DNA from: a virus
Direction: 5' to 3' (one strand)
IMG/VR virus record: IMGVR_UViG_3300023276_001086
Coordinates: 103,833-167,832 of that record
Length of the DNA stretch: 64,000 bases
Below the pieces are notes generated by a model. That model saw only the letters and a program-made list of their open reading frames with translations. It was not told the DNA's origin and ran no database searches. Within the stretch, counting starts at the first letter, position 1; each line of letters starts with the position of its first letter. Shown piece by piece: positions 2,404 through 64,000 of the stretch. The position numbers were made by a program, and so were the translations under genes.

Positions 2404-2588
2404 GTCCCCTTACCGTCTGCGAGACCATCCTCGTAGCCAGCCTCACGGCCCTTTTCCTCAGCTGCCTCAACGCAGCCTTCGCAGCTGTCAACCTGGAGCT
2501 CCCACATTCTACCGCTACCCGTCAGGTAGTATGTGAGCTCCTTCCCGCAGTCATCACAGATGACCCTGATCTCAATAGGACTAGGCAA
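2400..2588 (-). CDS. small zinc-ribbon protein
   Basis: 62 aa. The TTG start at 2588 is inferred from an AAGGAGAGG site and an eight-base TTGCCTAG overlap with the upstream stop. CDDC (about residue 11) and CEGC (about residue 38) flank a W-containing strand. This is the layout I, V, CDxCG, W, CxxC seen in small phage zinc ribbons. Function unknown. Confidence 0.6.
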   Translation of the reverse strand: MPSPIEIRVICDDCGKELTYYLTGSGRMWELQVDSCEGCVEAAEEKGREAGYEDGLADGKGT

Positions 2589-3897
2589 TTTCCTCTCCTT
2601 CCTGTTTATTGAGCGCACCACGCGAATCAGGGTCCTGGGGAGGTTCAACTGCTGTCACCTTCCCGAACTCCTGATAATCCACATCCAGCTTCCGCAAAGC
2701 CGCCGCCTCAACTTGATGCGGAACACGGGACGGGCACTCACTGTTGAAAACCTCTTCTCTCCAATCCAGCCCCTCGCTATGAAGATCGAGGAGGTACCGG
2801 AGCCAGTGCAGTATGGGGCTCTCCGTGCGCCTACTCAGTGAGCTGGCCCCGAATGTCATCGAGAGCCACTCAGTCCCGTAAACACCGAGATTCTTCGCTC
2901 GAGATTTCAGCTCTGCGGCCGCCGTCCCCCGTTCCGACACAGGGGGCGGCTTTAGCAACCGGCTAGGCTCCGCCCTCGGCCTCGACCTTACCACTGGTAC
3001 GGCCTCGTAATAACTGTCCACCAAACCATGGATCAGTTCGCCCTTGTCGCAGTCAGGTCGACCGCGGAACCACCGGCACTCCTCCTCGTGAGGATCCTCC
3101 AGCATGTTCTTCTCTCGAAACTGGTGCCCGCAGTAGTAGGCAGGGACTATGTAGGTGTTGGTGATATCGCGAGTACAGTAGCTTGTGTACCTCCCCCGTT
3201 CCTGCTTCTCCACAAGGGAAAACTGAGCAGCCAGGCTACTACACAGACTGCATGCTCGCACCTTAGCCGGCCGAGTCCGACTGCTGTAGTGGGGGGCGTG
3301 CTCGACGAAATCCTCCTTCTTGCGCGTGCGCTCATATATCTTGACCATCGCCCTACGCTCGAGCTGCCTCACGCGTTCTTTACTCTTGTGGATGAGCTCA
3401 CCGACCTCCTTCAGACCCAGAGGCCTCCTGCCTAACCCGAATCTGTGCTCGATTATCAGCCTCTCCTGGTCAGTCAGCGACGGCAGTACGGCCATGACGG
3501 AGTCCGTCAGCTCCTTGATCTCGTATTCCTCCTCTGGTGTTGCTGGCGGAAGGGCAGTGACCTCATCACTCCGAAGGAAGCTCTTGAGCTTGTCCGCGCT
3601 TAGCTCTTTGACGGCTGATTTCTCCTTGCCCACCGCATCCACGACGCTGGGCGGGAACAACTCCCAGATGTCCACCTTGAAGAACTCTGCCAGCTTCAGG
3701 GCACTGCTCTTCCAGGCGAGCTTGGCTGTCAGCGGGCTCGCTTTCATCGTCTCGTAGTGCCCCACCGTCTGGACGGGCACACCCGCTGCCCTATCCAGCT
3801 CCTTCTGGTGCAGCCCCAGCGCTTTCCTCCTCTTCTTCAGCTTGTTGTTCCGGATAGATACAGTGACCTCAAACTCGGGGATGTACTCAGACGTCAT
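2581..3897 (-). CDS. XRE-type HTH fused to sigma-70 region 4-like domain, with Cys-rich C-terminal part
   Basis: 438 aa. Residues about 16-75 form a Cro/CI-type helix-turn-helix (NKLKKRRKALGLHQKELDRA then VPVQTVGHYE). Residues about 131-188 closely follow RpoD region 4: LTDQERLIIEHRFGLG, then LKEVGELI, then SKERVRQLERRAM, the -35-reading HTH. Regions 1, 2 and 3 are absent, so it cannot melt a promoter by itself. Cysteines at about 216, 219, 241, 256, 274 and 283 could bind zinc. The remainder is basic and unassigned. It may occupy the sigma-4 position on RNA polymerase, bridging or blocking it while the XRE domain chooses DNA. It is in a block of genes downstream of a candidate promoter at 5553-5580. 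Confidence 0.82.
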   Translation of the reverse strand: MTSEYIPEFEVTVSIRNNKLKKRRKALGLHQKELDRAAGVPVQTVGHYETMKASPLTAKLAWKSSALKLAEFFKVDIWELFPPSVVDAVGKEKSAVKELSADKLKSFLRSDEVTALPPATPEEEYEIKELTDSVMAVLPSLTDQERLIIEHRFGLGRRPLGLKEVGELIHKSKERVRQLERRAMVKIYERTRKKEDFVEHAPHYSSRTRPAKVRACSLCSSLAAQFSLVEKQERGRYTSYCTRDITNTYIVPAYYCGHQFREKNMLEDPHEEECRWFRGRPDCDKGELIHGLVDSYYEAVPVVRSRPRAEPSRLLKPPPVSERGTAAAELKSRAKNLGVYGTEWLSMTFGASSLSRRTESPILHWLRYLLDLHSEGLDWREEVFNSECPSRVPHQVEAAALRKLDVDYQEFGKVTAVEPPQDPDSRGALNKQEGEEIA

Positions 3898-5552: not shown

Positions 5553-5580
5553 CTTATACCCACAGGCTCACCAACCTTGC
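5553..5580 (-). promoter_or_regulatory. candidate phage promoter
   Basis: On the minus strand, GCAAGG (5580-5575), 16 nt, TATAAG (5558-5553). It matches the recurring G(C/A)AAAR-N16-NATAAG layout seen elsewhere in this window. It lies in the 63-bp gap in front of the gene starting near 5519 and overlaps no coding sequence. Confidence 0.55.
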
Positions 5581-13261: not shown

Positions 13262-13503
13262 TACTACACTACCCTTCTTTGATCATGCCCACTTTGATCA
13301 AGTCGACTAATTGCACATAAAAGCCAGCTTGATCCTTTTCCGCACAAAGATCGTTTTACACGGGGGTCTTATGCCCTCCCTAGCCTACTCCCCCACCTTA
13401 CACACTTTGCCAATCCTTGGGACACTAGCCTGTGTAATGTGTGAAACACCTTTGCCAATCTCTGCGACACGAGACGTGTGCAAAAGATGATTGACAACTA
13501 CAC
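13262..13503 (-). promoter_or_regulatory. regulatory gap with two repeat pairs upstream of the left operon
   Basis: No gene is found here. CTTTGATCA occurs at about 13277 and again at about 13292, six bases apart. A longer imperfect direct repeat, CTTTGCCAATC-x-GACAC, occurs near 13404 and 13450. On the minus strand GGAAAAG, 16 nt, TATGTG (near 13335) is a weak promoter candidate, and GGGCATAAG near 13370 has the -10-like block but no matching -35. The repeats may be operators for one of the encoded HTH proteins. Confidence 0.45.
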
Positions 13504-21180: not shown

Positions 21181-21208
21181 CTTATACCCACATCGTAGCC
21201 CGTATTGA
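21181..21208 (-). promoter_or_regulatory. candidate phage promoter (weak -35)
   Basis: Minus strand: TCAATA, 16 nt, TATAAG (21186-21181). The sequence around the -10, GTGGGTATAAGGT, is shared with the 5553-5580 promoter. Positioned ahead of the gene starting at 21133. Confidence 0.45.
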
Positions 21209-21576: not shown

Positions 21577-21604
21577 CTTATCCCCCTTTCCCCCTCTCTT
21601 TTGC
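21577..21604 (-). promoter_or_regulatory. cassette promoter with TGGACTCGGG leader
   Basis: Minus strand: GCAAAA (21604-21599), exactly 16 nt, GATAAG (21582-21577), then GTATTG and TGGACTCGGG. All blocks recur at 22628, 55760 and 56322. The -35 overlaps the tail of the upstream cassette's terminator. Confidence 0.7.
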
Positions 21605-22627: not shown

Positions 22628-22655
22628 CTTATCCCTCCTTTCTGGGACGTTTTGC
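22628..22655 (-). promoter_or_regulatory. cassette promoter with TGGACTCGGG leader
   Basis: Minus strand: GCAAAA (22655-22650), exactly 16 nt, GATAAG (22633-22628), then ACTAATAG and TGGACTCGGG. About 35 nt of leader remain before the AAGGAG site of the 22577 gene. Confidence 0.7.
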
Positions 22656-35125: not shown

Positions 35126-35962
35126 TCAGGTTTTCACGATGACTTCGGCCGGATCGCCCTTTTGGCTACTGAGGACCTCGGTCACTTGGGCCGGACGTCC
35201 TCTAATAGAAGGCGGCCGGACATTGCCCTTTATGTTTTGAAATTCTACAGGATTGCCATCTACTTGCGAAACCCCAGTTCCCCAACCTTCTGACATTCTT
35301 ATGTTCGTCGGTTTGTACGCGTCGCCAACAGCTGCTGTAAGACGAGTCTCAACGGCTTGAAGTACCGGGACGTCTTCTTCGAGCACCTTTGCGCCCCAAC
35401 TGAACTGGAACGGGGTGACTGCGGGAACATTGATCGTTTCCTCTTTCGCAGCACCCTGTACAAGCGATCCCGGTGGAGAAGGGGCGAACACCTGACACCG
35501 TTGACCGATGTCGTGGAACCCGAGCTTGAGTAGTACCCGCCGGAGCAGCCACACATGAGAAGCCACCAACCAGGCGATATCTTCAGCCTCAGACGGTACG
35601 CGTGCGAGGCAGTTGAATGTGAGGTTGCCCGACATCATATCGACGTGTGTACGCTCGCCAGTCCTGACATCCTCGTGGAGAAGCTGATCCATACCCAACC
35701 CACTCCAACCAACGGCTGAGCGGACAAGGGCGATCACAGGTCGCTTCATCACCACGGCCTCTTCGACAGGCACATCCCGGGTAATGATGATCTCGGTCTT
35801 CTCCTCGTCGTCTTCCCAGTGCCAGTATCCTTCGGGTGCGGCCTTGAAGAGCTCACGCAAAAACAGCAGAGTCAACCGCTGAAGATGGCGGAGCGGGCTG
35901 GTAGACCAGCTACTCAAGGCGCCAGGGCTCAGTGGCGCTGAGGGAATGACTTCGTCAGACAT
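35126..35962 (-). CDS. putative tail terminator/neck protein
   Basis: 278 aa. N-terminal helix (PLRHLQRLTLLFLRELFKAA), then strand-rich core (ERTHVDMMSGNLTFNCLARV, WLVASHVWLLRRVLLKLGFH). Position directly upstream of the sheath in transcription order fits a tail-completion or terminator role. A helix followed by RPVIALVRSAVGWSGLGMD and a middle beta-sheet supports a small alpha/beta connector fold. Tentative. Confidence 0.45.
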   Translation of the reverse strand: MSDEVIPSAPLSPGALSSWSTSPLRHLQRLTLLFLRELFKAAPEGYWHWEDDEEKTEIIITRDVPVEEAVVMKRPVIALVRSAVGWSGLGMDQLLHEDVRTGERTHVDMMSGNLTFNCLARVPSEAEDIAWLVASHVWLLRRVLLKLGFHDIGQRCQVFAPSPPGSLVQGAAKEETINVPAVTPFQFSWGAKVLEEDVPVLQAVETRLTAAVGDAYKPTNIRMSEGWGTGVSQVDGNPVEFQNIKGNVRPPSIRGRPAQVTEVLSSQKGDPAEVIVKT

Positions 35963-36854
35963 CCCGTTGACCCTTCGTTACCCCACGCTGGTACGCATCC
36001 TCAAGGCTGCGCTTCTTCTCTTTGTCGAGCTGCCTCTTGTAACCGATCACCGACGCCCCACCGACCATGGGCAACGCGATCGATGCTATTTGGCGGACTT
36101 TGCTACCGGGAGAACCGCGGAACTTCTTCAGACCGTGGCGTACCACTTCGGAGGCGCCGTAGCCGATACCTGTCCCACCAGCGACCAGGGCAGTGTTGCC
36201 GAGGAACTGCTTGATCTTCTCCTTGTTCATCCGCCGGTTCTTATCCTCGGAGGTCTTTGGGAACCCCCGCACCATAGGATCATTCTCGTTAGCTTCCACA
36301 TACTCCTTGGCTGCGGCACGAGCTAATTCATGATGCTTACCCTTAGCAACGGCCCCACCAACCGCCCGGCCACCTGTGTACCCCAGAGCCGCACCAACCG
36401 CACTTGAGAGTAACTTACCAGTTTGCCCCATACCGCCACGGCGCGCTAAAGTATAGCCCAATCCTGCGCCACTCGAGACCCCAGTGATCCCACCAGCAAA
36501 CCGTGCGTGATCCACCCCAGCATCCTGGGCTGCGTTCTTTTGGAGCCTCTTCTTGCGGTATTGCACTGCCGCCGCCATCACTCCCCCGCTTACAAGCGCA
36601 GCTCCTACCGCGGGAGCGACATACCCAGGTGCCCGCAAGTACCGAAGCGTGACACTCTTCTCGCCGGCCTTCACGGCTCGATTTATCTTTCGGCTGTGCC
36701 TGATCGCCTCACCAATACGCATTCCAGTAGGCGCTGCGGCGCCAGAACCGACAGCGGCACCACCAATGACGGCGGCTTTCTCTCCCGTTGAGAGATCCCG
36801 CCCTTTCTCAGCGATCTTGACGAGCTCGTCACTGAATGCGCTGAAGTCGATCAT
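35955..36854 (-). CDS. tagged glycine-zipper virion protein
   Basis: 299 aa. Starts M-I-D-F-S-A-F-S-D-E-L-V-K-I-A-E. Several glycine-zipper segments follow: AAVIGGAAVGSGAAAPTG, APAVGAALVSGGVMAAAV, FAGGITGVSSGAGLGYTLA, SSAVGAALGYTGGRAVGG. Basic soluble linkers separate them. It looks like a protein that inserts into or crosses the host membrane at infection, but this is inferred from composition. The gene overlaps its neighbour by 4 bp. Confidence 0.6.
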   Translation of the reverse strand: MIDFSAFSDELVKIAEKGRDLSTGEKAAVIGGAAVGSGAAAPTGMRIGEAIRHSRKINRAVKAGEKSVTLRYLRAPGYVAPAVGAALVSGGVMAAAVQYRKKRLQKNAAQDAGVDHARFAGGITGVSSGAGLGYTLARRGGMGQTGKLLSSAVGAALGYTGGRAVGGAVAKGKHHELARAAAKEYVEANENDPMVRGFPKTSEDKNRRMNKEKIKQFLGNTALVAGGTGIGYGASEVVRHGLKKFRGSPGSKVRQIASIALPMVGGASVIGYKRQLDKEKKRSLEDAYQRGVTKGQRDV

Positions 36855-37423
36855 AGATCCCTCAAAAATGCCGGAGTCTCTTCAGGTTTCATGTCCCTAC
36901 CGTAGTTGGCCCTGTAGTAGCGGTTTTCTCGTTCCCACAATGCGTCTCGTACAGGTTTCAGTTCCGCATCTAGCTTCTTGGCGCTCTCAGTCTTCTTTAC
37001 AGCCTTCTCCTTTGCGGCGTCGGCTGTCTCCTTAGCGATGTTGGCCTTTCTCCGCTTGGCGGATTCTTCCATCCGTATCGCTACGTCTTCTTGGTCCGCT
37101 GCTCGCCGCGCTTGGTGCGCCTGATTTGCCTTTGTGCGAGACGCTGCGTCACGAGCCGCCCAGTGACTTCTATCTTTTGCGATACGCGCAGCCCGCGCAC
37201 CACGCTCTTTGAGAACTTGCCCGCCTAAAGCACCACCACCAGCACCAAGAGCCGCACCCCCCAGGCCCCCTATGAGGGCACGTTTCTTCCTACCCTCTTC
37301 GGGACCTGTGAGCCCTCCGATCGCAGCACCCAAACCAGCACCTCCGACACCACCAATGAGCGCCCCTCGGCCGGCGTAAGCAATCTTCTGCATCTCGTCG
37401 GTAAATGCGGAGAAGTCGATCAT
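36851..37423 (-). CDS. tagged glycine-zipper virion protein
   Basis: 190 aa. Starts M-I-D-F-S-A-F-T-D-E-M-Q-K-I-A-Y. Two zipper hairpins (ALIGGVGGAGLGAAIGGL, ALIGGLGGAALGAGGGALGG) of the type in outer-membrane lipoproteins. They are joined to a long basic/Ala-rich helix with heptads (RRAADQEDVAIRMEESAKRR). Probably an ejected or internal head protein. Confidence 0.6.
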   Translation of the reverse strand: MIDFSAFTDEMQKIAYAGRGALIGGVGGAGLGAAIGGLTGPEEGRKKRALIGGLGGAALGAGGGALGGQVLKERGARAARIAKDRSHWAARDAASRTKANQAHQARRAADQEDVAIRMEESAKRRKANIAKETADAAKEKAVKKTESAKKLDAELKPVRDALWERENRYYRANYGRDMKPEETPAFLRDL

Positions 37424-42655: not shown

Positions 42656-43774
42656 CTAGTAGAAGTTGACAGACGGGAAGAAGACTTCGTCCTCTACCCG
42701 GTTGTTCATCGACCCCAGGTCCTCTTCGTCAGCCGGCGAGACGGCAGCGAGGATACCGTCCGTGTTGGTCGTCGCCGAACCAGAGTAGAGCTCCAGCTTG
42801 CGAACGGCCGCCACGTTGATGATTGACATGGCGATGTCTTCCCACGCTTGCCACGTGATGAGGTTGACCACCTTGTCGATGTAGAACTTGACGTTGTTCA
42901 GGATGTAGAACCGACCCAGGAAGTCGGGGGAGGTGAAGGCGTAGAGGTTTCCGGGGATCAAGATGTCAGTCTTGATCGTCCGAACGAACCCGCGGCCAAC
43001 GAGGGTCTTGTACTTGTAGCCTTCGACCGCAGTCTCAGACTGAAGCTTGGACCCGAAGTCCTCAACCGTCCACTGGTTGACGTCGTCGAAGTCCACCTCG
43101 GTGAGGAGGATTTTCTCGCAGCGAAGTCGGTTGCCATCGAGCAGCTTGTGCAGCTTGATGATGTCCGGACGCTGGAGAGGCCACACGAAGGCGTCGTTGT
43201 TGGTATCCACTCGAGCGAACTCGCCCTTGGCGATGGACGCCTCGACCACGGTGCCGGCAGCGATCGTGGTGTAGTGGAGGTCAGTCGCGCCACCGTTGGC
43301 CTCGACCTGAAGAGCCTGCACCGCAGCTTCGCAGTGGATGAGGAACTCGCGGTCCTCGATCTCCTGGATGTCTTTGATGCTGTTGTCTTCGATGACCTTC
43401 GTGATCTTCATCCTGTACGCCAGGAGCTCCTGCTCGTACTTCTCGAACCTTTCGGACGAGATGGTGAAGAAGGGGACCTCGCAACGAGGCGCGCTGATGA
43501 GTCTGGCGTCGGGCTGACCCCGGAAGTTCATCGCCATCGCACGCGACTCGGGCTCGATCTCCTCAACCATCACGAGGGTGTCGTGGTGGATCGAAGGCTT
43601 CGCATCGTTCTTCGTGACGTTGCGAGGGGGGATGATGTTCCGACAGAAGGCCACTTCACGGAGGTGGTCACGGATGTACTCACCACCGAAAGCGGCAACT
43701 TTCTCTTTGCCCTCAGTCGAGTCGAGCTTGTCGAGGAACATACCGTTGAATACGTCTGCGGGTACTGCTGACAT
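42656..43774 (-). CDS. putative major capsid protein
   Basis: 372 aa. HK97-like build: N-terminal helix, then RCEVPFFTISSERFEKYEQE (E-loop/spine region), long spine helix (IQEIEDREFLIHCEAAVQAL), P-domain strands (NRLRCEKILLTEVDFDDVNQ) and a final hydrophobic strand. It follows a decoration-like gene and precedes a strong terminator, as expected for the most abundant head protein. N-terminal T-E-G-K-E-K-V-A resembles the recurring K-[IL]-A tag and may be processed. Identity inferred from context and length. Confidence 0.7.
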   Translation of the reverse strand: MSAVPADVFNGMFLDKLDSTEGKEKVAAFGGEYIRDHLREVAFCRNIIPPRNVTKNDAKPSIHHDTLVMVEEIEPESRAMAMNFRGQPDARLISAPRCEVPFFTISSERFEKYEQELLAYRMKITKVIEDNSIKDIQEIEDREFLIHCEAAVQALQVEANGGATDLHYTTIAAGTVVEASIAKGEFARVDTNNDAFVWPLQRPDIIKLHKLLDGNRLRCEKILLTEVDFDDVNQWTVEDFGSKLQSETAVEGYKYKTLVGRGFVRTIKTDILIPGNLYAFTSPDFLGRFYILNNVKFYIDKVVNLITWQAWEDIAMSIINVAAVRKLELYSGSATTNTDGILAAVSPADEEDLGSMNNRVEDEVFFPSVNFY

Positions 43775-53065: not shown

Positions 53066-53100
53066 GCCCCGACATCCGTCGGGCGCTTCTTCCTTAGCTA
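53066..53100 (+). terminator. terminator-like hairpin
   Basis: CCCGAC, ATCC loop, GTCGGG, then CGCTTCTTCCTTAGCTAG. The pyrimidine-rich tail and TTAGCTAG match the other plus-strand terminators here, though the T-run is interrupted. Lies between two convergent genes. Confidence 0.55.
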
Positions 53101-54960
53101 GTCATTGGTGAAGTCGACATGGTCGGCACTGGTCGGTACCAGGATGTCTGGTCGGGCCTTGATGAACATCGAAGCGAGGAAGCAGTAGAGGATGGAGTGG
53201 AACGAGTCGTCACTCTTGCCGGGGCTGAGCTTGTACTGGGTCATGTGAATCTGGTGATTGAACTCCGAGAATATATTGAGCATGTCGCTACCGTAGGGCG
53301 TTCGGAACTCCTCGTTCTTAGGGAACCAGATCTTCTGAGCTCGGATAGCGTTGAAGACATCAGCCATGACCTCTGTGCGGTGGAGCATGAAGCGCCCCAG
53401 GTTCGGCTCCCAACTCACCTTCTTCTTGGGCGCCGAGGCGTACTGATACTTCATGACCTTGTTGGCCCCGAAGTTACGCATCAGCCAATCGTTGCGGTCA
53501 AAGCCGCCACCGTAGTCAGAGCCCAGGACAACGAAGTTCACCTGGTTGAGCAACGCCGCGATCTTCTGAAGCTGAAGCTGTGGGTTGAGATCCTCACCCG
53601 TGAACCGGTGGATGTAGAAGATCTGGAACTGCCCGCCCATGTAACCACCCAGAGAGAGGACGGAGTAAGACTCGTTCTCCCCAGTCCCGTGGTCGAGCCC
53701 GGCCGCCACACCGCCGTAACATTTCTTGGCGTTCTCCAGGACGGCGTCCATCTCGTACATACGGATGGTGTCCTGGCAACACACCTCCACCTGCTTCTTC
53801 GTCAGAGGGCGCTGGCCGCTATCGAAGGACAGGCCGAGAACCTCGTTGTTGAACTTGGCGGTCTCGTAGTTCTCGAGTGGGAACAGCACACTGTCGTGCC
53901 AGCCGTCAGGGTCATTGATGATCCAGGGAACCATCAGCTGGTTGACCCGATAACCCTCAAACGCTACGCGGTGGGAATTGTCTTCGGTGACAGGTTGACC
54001 GGCGGCCCACTGAGCCAGGGGGTGCGCTGGGTTGATGGCCCGCTTACACTTCGAACAAACGGGGCCCCTCTTCCCGATGTTGCGCGCACCAAGCACGTTC
54101 CAATACCACGTCTCGGGTTTCGACCCCCCGCAGGCCTCGCACGGAACCAGCCACTCGTTCTGCGTAGAGAACTCCGACCAGTAGGTCTCGATGGTGTTGT
54201 CCATCGACTTCGGCGTGCCCGAGTAACAGAAAATCTTCCAGGGTGAGTGAGACGCGCACTGCTCGATGACCGGCACGTTGGCGAAGATGATGTCCTGAAT
54301 CTCATCAATCAGGATCATGTCCGCTGGGATACCGCGCGTTCGGTCAGCGTTGAGGAACGCGTACCTGATACGGACCTGAGACCGGTTCTTGAACTGCTTG
54401 AACAGCACGTTCTGACTGAGCCCGGAGTCAATGAGGTACGAGAGCTCGGGGCTGATATCGATGGGTTCCTTCAACCGGTCAACTGAGAAGACCGTCGCCT
54501 GGGTAGCAGTGGCGCTGACATACAGCACCTTGAAGCCGTAGTTGATGCCGCAGTAGGCGATGGCCTTGTTGCCCAGCATCGTAGACTTCTCAGTCTGCCG
54601 GGCACACTTCAGGAGCAACCGCCGAGCTGGCGTGTTGTAGGGCGCACGCAGGTAGCGGCGACCATCGAAGCTGAAACGTTGGACATCCCCGCCAACTGGG
54701 ATTCGAATAGAGAACTCAGTGAACTCAGAGGGCGTGGAGAATGTCTTGAGCTTATGGCTGACGACGGCGTCCTCGCCGAACATCACGTTCTCAACTTCAG
54801 CAGCCTCTAGCGCATCGTCCTCGTCACCCATTACGAGGTCGAGCTCATCCTCGAGACCCTGGTTGAGCTCTCCCGCCTCGAGAGCCTCCTTTGCCCGAAC
54901 ATAGAACCCGAGGTCGGTGGCCGGTGAGGAAACGTTGACTGCTGCGCCCATTGTGATCAC
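53098..54960 (-). CDS. terL: terminase large subunit
   Basis: 620 aa. ATPase: C-A-R-Q-T-E-K-S-T at 119-127 (Walker A of the R-Q-x-E-K-S-T type), MILIDE at 215-220 (Walker B plus catalytic Glu), S-G-T-P at 247-250 (coupling motif). Zinc ribbon CEAC at 274-277 and CSKC at 302-305, a feature of some terminase subgroups. Nuclease: G-L-D-H-G at about 421-425, V-L-G-S-D-Y at about 478-483, and D-D-S near 592, an RNase-H-like metal site. It packages DNA with the portal and cuts it. No strong ribosome site precedes ATG 54960; ATG 54951 is also possible. Confidence 0.9.
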   Translation of the reverse strand: MITMGAAVNVSSPATDLGFYVRAKEALEAGELNQGLEDELDLVMGDEDDALEAAEVENVMFGEDAVVSHKLKTFSTPSEFTEFSIRIPVGGDVQRFSFDGRRYLRAPYNTPARRLLLKCARQTEKSTMLGNKAIAYCGINYGFKVLYVSATATQATVFSVDRLKEPIDISPELSYLIDSGLSQNVLFKQFKNRSQVRIRYAFLNADRTRGIPADMILIDEIQDIIFANVPVIEQCASHSPWKIFCYSGTPKSMDNTIETYWSEFSTQNEWLVPCEACGGSKPETWYWNVLGARNIGKRGPVCSKCKRAINPAHPLAQWAAGQPVTEDNSHRVAFEGYRVNQLMVPWIINDPDGWHDSVLFPLENYETAKFNNEVLGLSFDSGQRPLTKKQVEVCCQDTIRMYEMDAVLENAKKCYGGVAAGLDHGTGENESYSVLSLGGYMGGQFQIFYIHRFTGEDLNPQLQLQKIAALLNQVNFVVLGSDYGGGFDRNDWLMRNFGANKVMKYQYASAPKKKVSWEPNLGRFMLHRTEVMADVFNAIRAQKIWFPKNEEFRTPYGSDMLNIFSEFNHQIHMTQYKLSPGKSDDSFHSILYCFLASMFIKARPDILVPTSADHVDFTND

Positions 54961-54970
54961 CGTAACAGAC

Positions 54971-54998
54971 GAAAAGGTTCGGGTCCAAGCGGTATAAG
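54971..54998 (+). promoter_or_regulatory. candidate phage promoter
   Basis: GAAAAG (54971-54976), exactly 16 nt, TATAAG (54993-54998). In the divergent gap between the terminase and the plus-strand genes starting at 55047, with GGAGAGAGT before that GTG. Confidence 0.65.
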
Positions 54999-55759: not shown

Positions 55760-55787
55760 GGAAAAACGGGCCTGAACAGGGCATAAG
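55760..55787 (+). promoter_or_regulatory. cassette promoter with TGGACTCGGG leader
   Basis: GGAAAA (55760-55765), 16 nt, CATAAG (55782-55787), then ACTATTG and TGGACTCGGG. The -35 lies in the loop of a GGCCCG/CGGGCC hairpin that may close the previous cassette. Confidence 0.7.
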
Positions 55788-56321: not shown

Positions 56322-56349
56322 GAAAAGCATGGGCTAAATGGGGCATAAG
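56322..56349 (+). promoter_or_regulatory. cassette promoter with TGGACTCGGG leader
   Basis: GAAAAG (56322-56327), exactly 16 nt, CATAAG (56344-56349), then AATCATG and TGGACTCGGG. Immediately follows the terminator of the previous cassette. Confidence 0.7.
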
Positions 56350-61707: not shown

Positions 61708-62859
61708 CTACTCCCCCAAAGACTTGGTGGTCTGCCCAGACGGTGCGACCACGTTCGGTTTAGGGATGCCGGTAACGCCAGCAGAAGTGGTGTGGGTGTG
61801 CGCCGCCATGAACAGCATGACGTCCGGCGTAGCTAGCACGAAGGGGGTGCTCGCACTGCCACCAATCTTAGTCATGGGACTGTCGATCACCTTCTGCCCG
61901 CTGATGGTGTCTTTGCTGTTGTTGGCTGTGAGCTCGTGATTGCCCTCAACGGACACGGTCTGGTTACCGCTGATGGTCGTCTCAGTCGCCCCATACTGCT
62001 GAGTGACCGTCCCGTCTACCGTGTCCTCGAGGGTGCCCTCGATGTGCCGAGTGTAGTCACCCTTCACCGTAACATCGACATCGCCATCAGCATTGACCGC
62101 GAAATCGTAGACCGCTGACCCGTCATCCAGAGTACGGGCCGTCGAATCGATAGAGTTGGGTGCCACCACGCAACGTAGCCTAGTCTCGTCGTCCACGTGA
62201 CCGGCCGTGATCATTACAGTGTTCTTCTCCTCTTGGGCGTGGTCTCGCGCAGCCAGTGTGAAGACGGTCTTGGCCTCGCTGTCGGGATCCGTGTCGCTCT
62301 TTGTGGTAGTCCAGAGCATCTCCCCACCGAAGTTGAGCATCTGGTAGTTCTCGCAGACGTCACGGATCATGTTGGTGATGGGGATGTAGACTCGCTTAGC
62401 GACAGCAGTGGCTTCGATTTCAATGACCCCGCCTCGGTGCAACCAGATCTGGTTACCGTCCCGACACCGCATCATCAGATCACCCTGCTGGAGCTTGGGG
62501 CGTCCGGAGGCGAAAGTTACGTCAGCTTCCTCCCCGTCCCCGGTGTCGGGTTGTGTCGTCCCGTCTCCGGTAGCACCGCGCTCAAAGGTAGTGGTGAAGC
62601 AGAGAACAAAAGGCCTGTCGTCGGTGGGTGTGCAGACCTGTACCTTGGCGGCCACCTCCGGCATGACAAAGATGCCCTCACCGGAATGGAAGTGAAGGTA
62701 CGGAGCACCAACCTGAACATCAAGCAAGAGACGGTGAGAGCTGACTGTACGAACGTCGATGGTCCAGTGTGCCATATCGACATTGATGATCTGCCCACAC
62801 TCAATGCGGACGGGGTTACCACCCCGCTGAGCCATCCCAGTATCTTGCGAGTAGGACAT
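61708..62859 (-). CDS. baseplate spike / gpV-like protein
   Basis: 383 aa. Residues about 15-90 (VRIECGQIINVDMAHWTIDV, then VQVGAPYLHFHSGEGIFVMP) form the OB-fold of gp5/gpV/VgrG baseplate hub proteins. D-L-M-M-R-C-R-D-G-N-Q-I-W-L-H-R-G-G-V-I-E-I is the typical strand pair. Residues about 270-335 (VDVTVKGDYTRHIEGTLEDT and the following V-x-G repeats) are a triple-stranded beta-helix stalk. The C-terminal H-T-H is the usual metal-binding region near the tip. It pierces the cell envelope at the tail end. Confidence 0.8.
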   Translation of the reverse strand: MSYSQDTGMAQRGGNPVRIECGQIINVDMAHWTIDVRTVSSHRLLLDVQVGAPYLHFHSGEGIFVMPEVAAKVQVCTPTDDRPFVLCFTTTFERGATGDGTTQPDTGDGEEADVTFASGRPKLQQGDLMMRCRDGNQIWLHRGGVIEIEATAVAKRVYIPITNMIRDVCENYQMLNFGGEMLWTTTKSDTDPDSEAKTVFTLAARDHAQEEKNTVMITAGHVDDETRLRCVVAPNSIDSTARTLDDGSAVYDFAVNADGDVDVTVKGDYTRHIEGTLEDTVDGTVTQQYGATETTISGNQTVSVEGNHELTANNSKDTISGQKVIDSPMTKIGGSASTPFVLATPDVMLFMAAHTHTTSAGVTGIPKPNVVAPSGQTTKSLGE

Positions 62860-63279
62860 CTAGTTCGGGGCGGCCGAAGAGCGACCGGCCAGGTAACCCG
62901 CACCGCCGAGAGCACCCACTCCGAGAGCTGCCGCGCCCACAGCCTTACCGGTGTTGCTCCTCGCCACTCCGCGCAGACCACCGGAAACGTGATCCCAAGT
63001 ACCCATGTCCCCAACGCCCTTGCCCAGGCTCTTCGCACCGGACTGAACCGGGCCCTGGATCGGGGTCAGCGCACCCACGCGTTTGGCCTGTGCGCGGACA
63101 CCGCCCTGCCACGCCTTGCCTAGCCGGCCGAGAACTCCTCCCCCAGCTTTGGAGCCAGTGAGCATCATCTTGGTTCCCTTGGCTGCGCCACCGAGGAACG
63201 CTACCTTTGTCAATATCCTTCGTTTTTCGATTTCCCCAAGTTCGTCGAAGAACGCAGAGTAGGTCGTTTCCTCGATCAT
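62860..63279 (-). CDS. tagged glycine-zipper virion protein
   Basis: 139 aa. S-A-F-F-D-E-L-G-E-I-E is the N-terminal tag variant, then V-A-F-L-G-G-A-A-K-G. The C-terminal zipper AVGAAALGVGALGGAGYLAG spans a membrane. Next to the beta-prime-like gene and the spike; another candidate ejection protein. Confidence 0.6.
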   Translation of the reverse strand: MIEETTYSAFFDELGEIEKRRILTKVAFLGGAAKGTKMMLTGSKAGGGVLGRLGKAWQGGVRAQAKRVGALTPIQGPVQSGAKSLGKGVGDMGTWDHVSGGLRGVARSNTGKAVGAAALGVGALGGAGYLAGRSSAAPN

Positions 63280-63280
63280 C

Positions 63281-64000
63281 TCAGTACCTCCACGGTTTTT
63301 CTTTAGTACCCTTACCGAATTCTACACCATGCACCAGAGGCGGTATCGGGTTCAACCCATGAAGATCCGAGGACCAGCCACGCTGCGATGCCTCTATGAC
63401 CGTACTCCGGAGGTGCTCGTGATTCAACCGGGCCATCCAGTCCTCCTGCACATCAAGGGGTATCTGCTTGACGCCCCTAAGCACGGGAGAATGTTTCACA
63501 GGAGCGCCCTTTTTGTTCTTCTTGTTCCAATCGTAGACTTGCGTAGTGCTGGTAAAATCTCCCGGTAGGAGATCTGAGTTACCGCCGGGGTCCTCAACCT
63601 TGGTCACGCCAGAAAGCGCACGCACCATGACCTCGGAGTTACGTCGACGAACACCGTACTGCCCGTAGATGCCGTGGAGCTCACCGGCGAGGTGGCCTTG
63701 GGTCTTGCTTATGCCAACCAGCGGCAGCAGATCATGGGGATTGACTGGTCCTTTGGTGAGTGGGGCGCCCTTACGCACAGACTGACCAACGCGAACCCCA
63801 GACAGGCGAACTCGATCAGCGGGGATATAATCCTCAGTGTCGCCAATCTTCACCCTAAAGCCGCCAGCTGGATCCTTTTTGACACGCTTGATCTTCCCGC
63901 TCGAGGTGGCGAGGGTCGCTGATCCCTTGACCTTCTTCTTGAGATAGAGGAGTTCGGTGGCTTGATTGAGACCACCAGATGTCAACGACTTTTCGCCCTT
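63281..64000 (-). CDS. RNA polymerase beta-prime C-terminal-like protein (cut by window edge)
   Basis: 240 residues visible; the frame is open to the edge, so the TTG at 63985 is not the start. The order matches the C-terminal part of bacterial RpoC. S-G-G-L-N-Q-A-T-E-L corresponds to GLPRVxELFEA. V-R-V-G-Q-S-V-R-K-G-A-P-L-T-K-G-P-V-N-P-H corresponds to G-x-x-V-x-x-G-x-x-x-x-x-G-P-x-x-P-H-D. The phrase G-I-S-K-T-Q-G-H-L-A-G-E-L corresponds to G-V-x-x-x-x-x-Y-x-x-x-E-x. Y-G-V-R-R-R-N-S-E-V-M-V-R-A-L corresponds to QGVxIxxKHIEVIVRQM. EDPGGNSDLLPGD corresponds to G-x-x-D-F-L-x-G-E. STVIEASQRGWSSDLHGLNP corresponds to the T-E-A-A-I-x-G-x-x-D-x-L-x-G-L-K-E-N segment. It sits in a virion operon, so a virion-packaged or phage-specific RNA polymerase is possible. 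The catalytic part would lie outside the window. Confidence 0.8.
   Translation of the reverse strand, partial: KGEKSLTSGGLNQATELLYLKKKVKGSATLATSSGKIKRVKKDPAGGFRVKIGDTEDYIPADRVRLSGVRVGQSVRKGAPLTKGPVNPHDLLPLVGISKTQGHLAGELHGIYGQYGVRRRNSEVMVRALSGVTKVEDPGGNSDLLPGDFTSTTQVYDWNKKNKKGAPVKHSPVLRGVKQIPLDVQEDWMARLNHEHLRSTVIEASQRGWSSDLHGLNPIPPLVHGVEFGKGTKEKPWRY

Follow-up and report, generated by a model that had tools for sequence, protein, structure and literature searches.

A complete bacterial-type RNA polymerase in one chain of 2,050 residues, encoded between the portal and tail spike genes of a phage and probably carried in its particle

We consider it probable, at about 0.8, that the phage studied here encodes a whole RNA polymerase of bacterial type, its catalytic residues intact, in which beta and beta-prime constitute one chain of 2,050 residues, and that this enzyme is carried in the phage particle. 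The window, i.e. the whole stretch of 64,000 nucleotides analysed, covers the final 64 kb of a virus contig 167,832 bp long (G000:C1:103833-167832), and the polymerase gene enters it only with its C-terminal codons, in a reading frame that stays open right up to the window edge (Table 1). A sequence-only reading of this end had recognised landmarks of the RpoC C-terminus, and these are real: residues 10-222 of the 239-aa fragment significantly match bacterial beta-prime in the PDB (best 7l7b_D, E=3.8e-17, with dozens of further matches), and PHROG 25354 is matched over profile positions 954-1164 of 1216 (E=1.3e-16), while Pfam gave no match to the fragment alone. The last 180 bases of the contig (167653-167832) repeat the first 180 (1-180) with two mismatches, so that, despite the linear classification of the record, the phage molecule is taken to be either circular or redundant at its termini, and the genome to be probably near complete. 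Joined over the contig ends, the frame yields the 2,050-aa chain, whose GTG start codon is uncertain; what had been taken for a polymerase fragment or a lone beta-prime is instead the end of a complete fused enzyme, cut by the contig end. In two relatives (L013 and L016), the polymerase gene is a single unbroken ORF of 2,065 aa flanked on both sides by the same genes, and therefore the break in the study phage is merely the point where the contig was opened.

Upstream of the fragment lies the catalytic core and not a plain structural protein. Beta occupies approximately residues 1-1000 of the joined chain, with the motifs LDPLHTPEG (387), NFEDGV (635), GRHGNKG (777) and NPIGTPGRMN (808), and beta-prime comes next, almost or entirely without a linker, with VLPPSMRP (1168), NADFDGD (1377), AAQALGERGTQL (1787) and GPVNPHD (1895). 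RpoB and RpoC domains are recognised by Pfam (Rpb2_6, 5e-61; Rpb1_2, 4e-26; Rpb1_5, 1.6e-19; Rpb2_3, 1e-6), with Rpb1_1 and Rpb1_3 matching under the curated cut-off, and phmmer aligns the chain with a bacterial beta-prime at E=1.5e-89. Among PDB structures, RpoB and RpoC are matched by AlphaFold models of the chain halves (pLDDT 83 and 79). The D-x-D-G-D aspartates are conserved in the motif variants listed for 44 aligned proteins. The N-terminal zinc-binding domain of beta-prime is missing from every fused and Arash-type row shown and retained in bacteria and Cobetia phage Carin-5; the beta/beta-prime junction is contracted relative to bacteria, and the second zinc site is retained in most rows shown. 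Host contamination was considered and rejected, as portal, terminase and capsid genes surround the polymerase gene and the closest cellular sequences kept are at most 33% identical. The best 80 matches listed in a scan of genome contigs were all bacterial rpoC and gave no clue to the host. A tRNA search within the 64-kb window found none.

The family was sampled as 72 loci from one IMG/VR scan, and about 40 related contigs hold the whole enzyme in one ORF. These comprise 38 ORFs of 2,011-2,189 aa with the whole or nearly whole chain, one of them truncated by a contig end, together with six of greater length (2,464-3,008 aa; L019, L034/L070, L054, L057, L067) that contain intein-like inserts. 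The inserts sit at conserved positions (behind DFDGD, within the fork region, close to the beta barrel, and in the trigger region), and two of the six long polymerases carry two inserts each. The enzyme is split inside beta in L031/L045 and L061, and Arash-type members are split after the catalytic part (1,525 plus about 610 aa) or are in three pieces. In Vibrio phage D181 (L010 2959-8473), a homing endonuclease gene interrupts the polymerase gene, which is annotated as pieces of 1,545 and 3,021 bp and is whole in D69. L074 (8917-14652) encodes a 1,911-aa beta-beta-prime-N protein with about 445 additional residues near the junction, where the zinc domain was lost. In the fused, divergent pair L052 and L078, GGDFDGD apparently replaces NADFDGD, and the second zinc site of beta-prime has seemingly lost its cysteines, as seen in the L052 row. 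A tree of the phage polymerases with 20 bacterial-type rpoBC pairs and no archaea, built by a quick method and with long branches flagged, places the clade of the study polymerase apart from bacterial-type rpoBC on a branch with 100% SH-aLRT support. Full support attaches to the branch that sets off the bacteria and to that of the Arash type. The fused type forms one clade save for one split member inside it, L031; the tree gives no direction for fusion versus splitting.

The gene lies within the structural operon, as the sequence-only reading had proposed, between portal and tail spike. A portal homologue is found upstream of the polymerase in 56 loci and a gp5-like spike downstream in 40, and the order portal, polymerase, spike is constant wherever both flanking genes are present. 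By phmmer, only about 19 genes are common to the study phage and Salmonella phage Arash, namely those for head, tail, packaging, polymerase, sigma, an SNF2-type ATPase, DNA polymerase and ligase. The small ORF directly after the polymerase has a tag-like N-terminal stretch, SAFFDELGEIEK...TKVA. A recurrent N-terminal tag, M-I-D-F-S-A-F-x-D-E-L-x-K-I-A, was observed on at least eight study-phage proteins, with loci that include L003 10122-12648 (-), window 35955-36854 (-), 36851-37423 (-) and 62860-63279 (-), and L005 6384-7151 (-). Looser E-K-[ILMV]-A versions occur on the capsid protein, sigma and other structural-region proteins; tags are found within the first 30 residues of 16/226 proteins as against 3/206 in residues 31-60, and similar N-terminal tags occur in relatives. 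By analogy with the internal proteins of phage T4, the tag may be a capsid-targeting or prohead-protease signal.

Table 1. Coordinates of the features discussed, as positions in the 64-kb window.
Feature	Position	Strand	Remark
Second sigma-like protein: helix-turn-helix and sigma-70 region 4	2581..3897	-	PF04545 E=3e-11, PF01381 3e-9
Promoter-like GGNATAAG site	5553..5560	-	
Promoter-like GGNATAAG site	13368..13375	-	
Promoter-like GGNATAAG site	21181..21188	-	
Promoter-like GGNATAAG site	21577..21584	-	GCAAAA box upstream
Promoter-like GGNATAAG site	22628..22635	-	GCAAAA box upstream
Major capsid protein homologue (Arash gp226)	42656..43774	-	phmmer E=2.6e-31
Terminase large subunit	53098..54951	-	PF05876 E=3.6e-10; homologue of Arash gp1
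Promoter-like GGNATAAG site	54991..54998	+	CGAAAA box upstream
Promoter-like GGNATAAG site	55780..55787	+	GGAAAAA box upstream
Promoter-like GGNATAAG site	56342..56349	+	CGAAAA box upstream
gp5-like baseplate hub/tail spike protein	61708..62859	-	Gp5_C, Gp5_trimer_C; phrog_430
139-aa ORF directly after polymerase, glycine/alanine-rich	62860..63279	-	homologue at the corresponding position in L013 and L016
C-terminal 239 codons of fused beta-beta-prime RNA polymerase	63281..64000	-	remainder: contig 5613 down to 1, locus L002

Carriage of the polymerase in the particle, hinted at in the sequence-only reading, is well supported through its homologue in Arash, for which mass spectrometry of particles has been published. 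Arash gp206, comprising beta and the first part of beta-prime, was detected more than any other protein of the particle, with 3,516 spectra and 128 unique peptides. The rest of beta-prime, gp216, had 1,210 spectra, and sigma gp10 and helicase gp217 were abundant too (PMC10585845). Calculated per residue, spectra amount to 2.31 for gp206, 2.00 for gp216, 2.00 for gp10 and 2.43 for the SNF2-type gp217, values close to one another and somewhat higher than that of the portal (1.51), the capsid protein being at 4.34; the ratio of beta-beta-prime-N, beta-prime-C and sigma is near 1:1:1. The same particle preparation also contained DNA ligase, primase and the like (PMC10585845), and therefore the abundance of the polymerase could partly be carry-over. 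In addition, several rows of the proteome table are odd in listing hundreds of spectra and almost full coverage for only 2 unique peptides. The Arash evidence is strong and not conclusive, because spectral counts are rough and likely non-structural proteins are present in the preparation. By analogy with the Arash enzyme, which is only about 33% identical to that of the study phage, we infer that the latter is carried in the virion as well.

A gp10-type sigma of the study phage (contig 66384-67151; locus L005 6384-7151, minus strand) was found with the Arash sigma as query (E=2.6e-22), and the Pfam model of sigma region 2 matched nowhere in the genome. Sigma is present in all 17 polymerase-bearing contigs of at least 150 kb among the 30 searched and was missed in only eight, all shorter than 150 kb; in the phage collection, it is restricted to Arash and three Vibrio D phages. 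In the study phage and some relatives, sigma has an N-terminal extension resembling the structural-region tag, which Arash-type sigmas lack. Adjoining the sigma gene is that of an SNF2-type ATPase (contig 67151-68728; PF00176 5e-14, PF00271 2.5e-17), homologous to the Arash protein (phmmer, E=1.4e-79). It occurs in 15/30 contigs, some of these copies being partial, and was not detected in some large contigs. Its best PDB matches are chromatin remodellers and an SNF2/Rad54-family helicase, and NPH-I (6rfl_Y, E=1.8e-12) is a further PDB match. The second sigma-like protein of Table 1 is perhaps a sigma for later genes.

A word comparison between intergenic and coding sequence of eight genomes revealed a promoter-like motif, GGNATAAG, as the top or near-top intergenic word in the study phage and six relatives, with the form GGTATAAG in Arash. 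In the study phage, 16/22 GGNATAAG sites are intergenic, although such sequence makes up 7.5% of the total (binomial P 5e-14), and the seven relatives show a like excess (P 1e-8 or less). Orientation is equally consistent, since 142/153 intergenic sites in the eight genomes face the gene that follows, whose start is mostly 25-80 nt away. A GCAA/AAAA box lies about 20 nt upstream from the GG of the motif, AAA beginning 15-31 times at the best offsets and elsewhere mostly 0-5 times. The -10 element of the motif departs from the sigma-70 extended -10 at -7, where it has G, and at -12, where any base occurs; Arash sites often read TGGTATAAG, resembling an extended -10. The sites precede non-structural genes family-wide; judged from sites and annotation, none in the study phage faces a recognised structural gene, and the sole site beside the polymerase gene (L002 5698, +) faces away from it. 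Directly after one site lies a gene (L006 5407-7284, +) for an HD-domain protein of 625 aa that resembles CCA-adding enzymes/poly(A) polymerases. Host-type TTGACA/TATAAT pairs number 4 in the study phage versus 8 in a reversed control, with TATAAT rare, and in most genomes sigma-70-type pairs do not clearly outnumber those of reversed sequence, TATAAG exceeding TATAAT. The motif is weak in the tested segment of Vibrio phage D69 (4/7 intergenic), and in control segments GGNATAAG is not clearly enriched, on small counts (T4, 0/3 intergenic; Felix O1, 2/3 intergenic with 22% of the segment called intergenic). A literature search for the motif string returned nothing relevant among the papers listed. 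A TATATA-like word is also strongly enriched between genes in Arash (L011, L085, L086, L012) and G022 (L248-L257) and is possibly another promoter class. From the correlation of the two in these genomes, sigma may recognise the GGNATAAG promoters, and host RNA polymerase might read some of the sites.

Under the explanation we propose, the polymerase would be made late, together with structural proteins, packaged with sigma and probably also with the ATPase, and ejected along with the phage DNA, whereupon sigma would direct it to early promoters of the form GCAAA-N(about 16)-GGNATAAG, 'early' being meant by gene type only. If the phage polymerase serves such promoters, early genes could be transcribed without the host polymerase. 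As the polymerase gene lies in the structural operon and the one motif site beside it faces away, phage-specific early promoters would require a polymerase arriving with the DNA. More tentatively, and at slightly less than an even chance, the lineage may possess a self-sufficient virion kit of one-chain polymerase, packaged sigma-70-type factor bearing a capsid-targeting tag and SNF2-type ATPase, reminiscent of poxvirus virions, with its own GCAAA/GGNATAAG promoters replacing those of the host and a core that functions without alpha.

An unlikely rival is a non-virion polymerase for middle or late genes, found in Arash particles by carry-over while host polymerase performs early transcription. 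The Arash authors raised this option themselves and list non-structural enzymes (PMC10585845), and phiKZ-like phages do have a non-virion polymerase besides the virion one (PMC7598289). Against it stand the spectral count of the Arash polymerase, the highest of all, with its near 1:1:1 proportions, the family-wide position of the gene in the structural operon, the lack of enrichment of host-type promoters, and GGNATAAG sites that stand before non-structural and not before recognised structural genes. Moreover, no second RNA polymerase was found in the study phage, as PF04998 matches at one place and a search for a T7-type enzyme, run without a positive control, yielded none. It is far less probable that the main role of the polymerase in the head is structural or DNA-organising and that its catalysis goes unused in early infection: its abundance in Arash, near or above portal level, and a gene adjoining that of the portal would fit, but catalytic landmarks, the D-x-D-G-D aspartates among them, are conserved family-wide, sigma always accompanies the polymerase in large contigs, and the promoter-like motif is found throughout the family. 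Finally, that the fusion arose by joining contig ends or by assembly error, for which the mismatches in the overlap and the linear classification could be cited, is rejected, given uninterrupted ORFs in L013, L016 and others among the 38 described above and the fusion of beta with the catalytic part of beta-prime already inside one contig end (1,871 aa).

The virion polymerase gp66 of crAss-like phages is one polypeptide that contains both barrels and is carried in the particle, rpoB-rpoC fusions joining the beta C-terminus to the beta-prime N-terminus occur in Helicobacter and Wolbachia, and the poxvirus virion transcription set contains a polymerase with the SNF2-like NPH-I. The Helicobacter and Wolbachia fusions are cellular, whereas the phage chain has a contracted junction and lacks the N-terminal zinc domain of beta-prime; the poxvirus set, with its virion polymerase and SNF2-type ATPase, is an analogy only and not related as a system. 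gp66 is a fusion whose homology to cellular subunits is hardly detectable (PMC7481178), in contrast to the bacterial-like study polymerase (E below 1e-80), the two being set apart by description. The phiKZ group also carries a multisubunit-type enzyme in the particle for early genes, with beta and beta-prime divided among several diverged polypeptides (PMC7598289), unlike the one bacterial-like chain with a sigma-70-type partner described here. Arash (gp206/gp216) and Vibrio phages D69, D148 and D181 have a homologous polymerase, about 33% identical and with the portal directly upstream; Arash and D69 share the virion-type sigma, and Arash also the SNF2-type ATPase; the GGTATAAG motif is a further common feature. 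They differ in a polymerase in two pieces, cut after the catalytic beta-prime part and further interrupted in D181, in a more diverged trigger-loop region and, for Arash, in a sigma without the extension.

Closest in description are the multi-subunit RNAP-encoding Caudovirales, mReC, of Weinheimer and Aylward, IMG/VR tailed phages with bacterial-like beta and beta-prime that keep NADxDGD, form a deep branch apart from cellular enzymes and have the gene among hallmark structural genes (PMC7481178). The sequence-only reading was right that the sequence is bacterial-like; phage polymerases of this kind have a precedent, the lineage having been published in 2020. The study phage shows beta and beta-prime recognisable with cellular models (of Pfam, where that paper used COG models) and NADxDGD as NADFDGD; its TerL matches PF05876 instead of the marker PF03237, and its capsid protein homologue has no Pfam match at E 0.05, PF07068 being the marker there, and both markers are found in only part of the mReC contigs (PMC7481178). 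The main text of that paper treats beta and beta-prime as subunits without mention of fusion in mReC and is silent on virion carriage, sigma and promoters (PMC7481178). Already known, then, are the mReC lineage (PMC7481178) and the Arash virion proteome (PMC10585845); new in this analysis are the sigma in all 17 large contigs and the GGNATAAG motif marking non-structural genes family-wide. Neither the complete one-chain form, nor the family-wide set of sigma and ATPase, nor the promoter class was described in the literature searched, which excluded most subscription papers and all supplements.

A single-chain bacterial-type core, possibly independent of alpha, would offer a minimal model for the polymerase of cells and be simple to express, and the one-, two- and three-piece forms in one tree constitute a natural experiment on the fusing and splitting of polymerase subunits. 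A virion holoenzyme with a true sigma would explain how infection starts without reliance on the host polymerase; through the promoter motif, this idea becomes directly testable in the cultured relative Arash.
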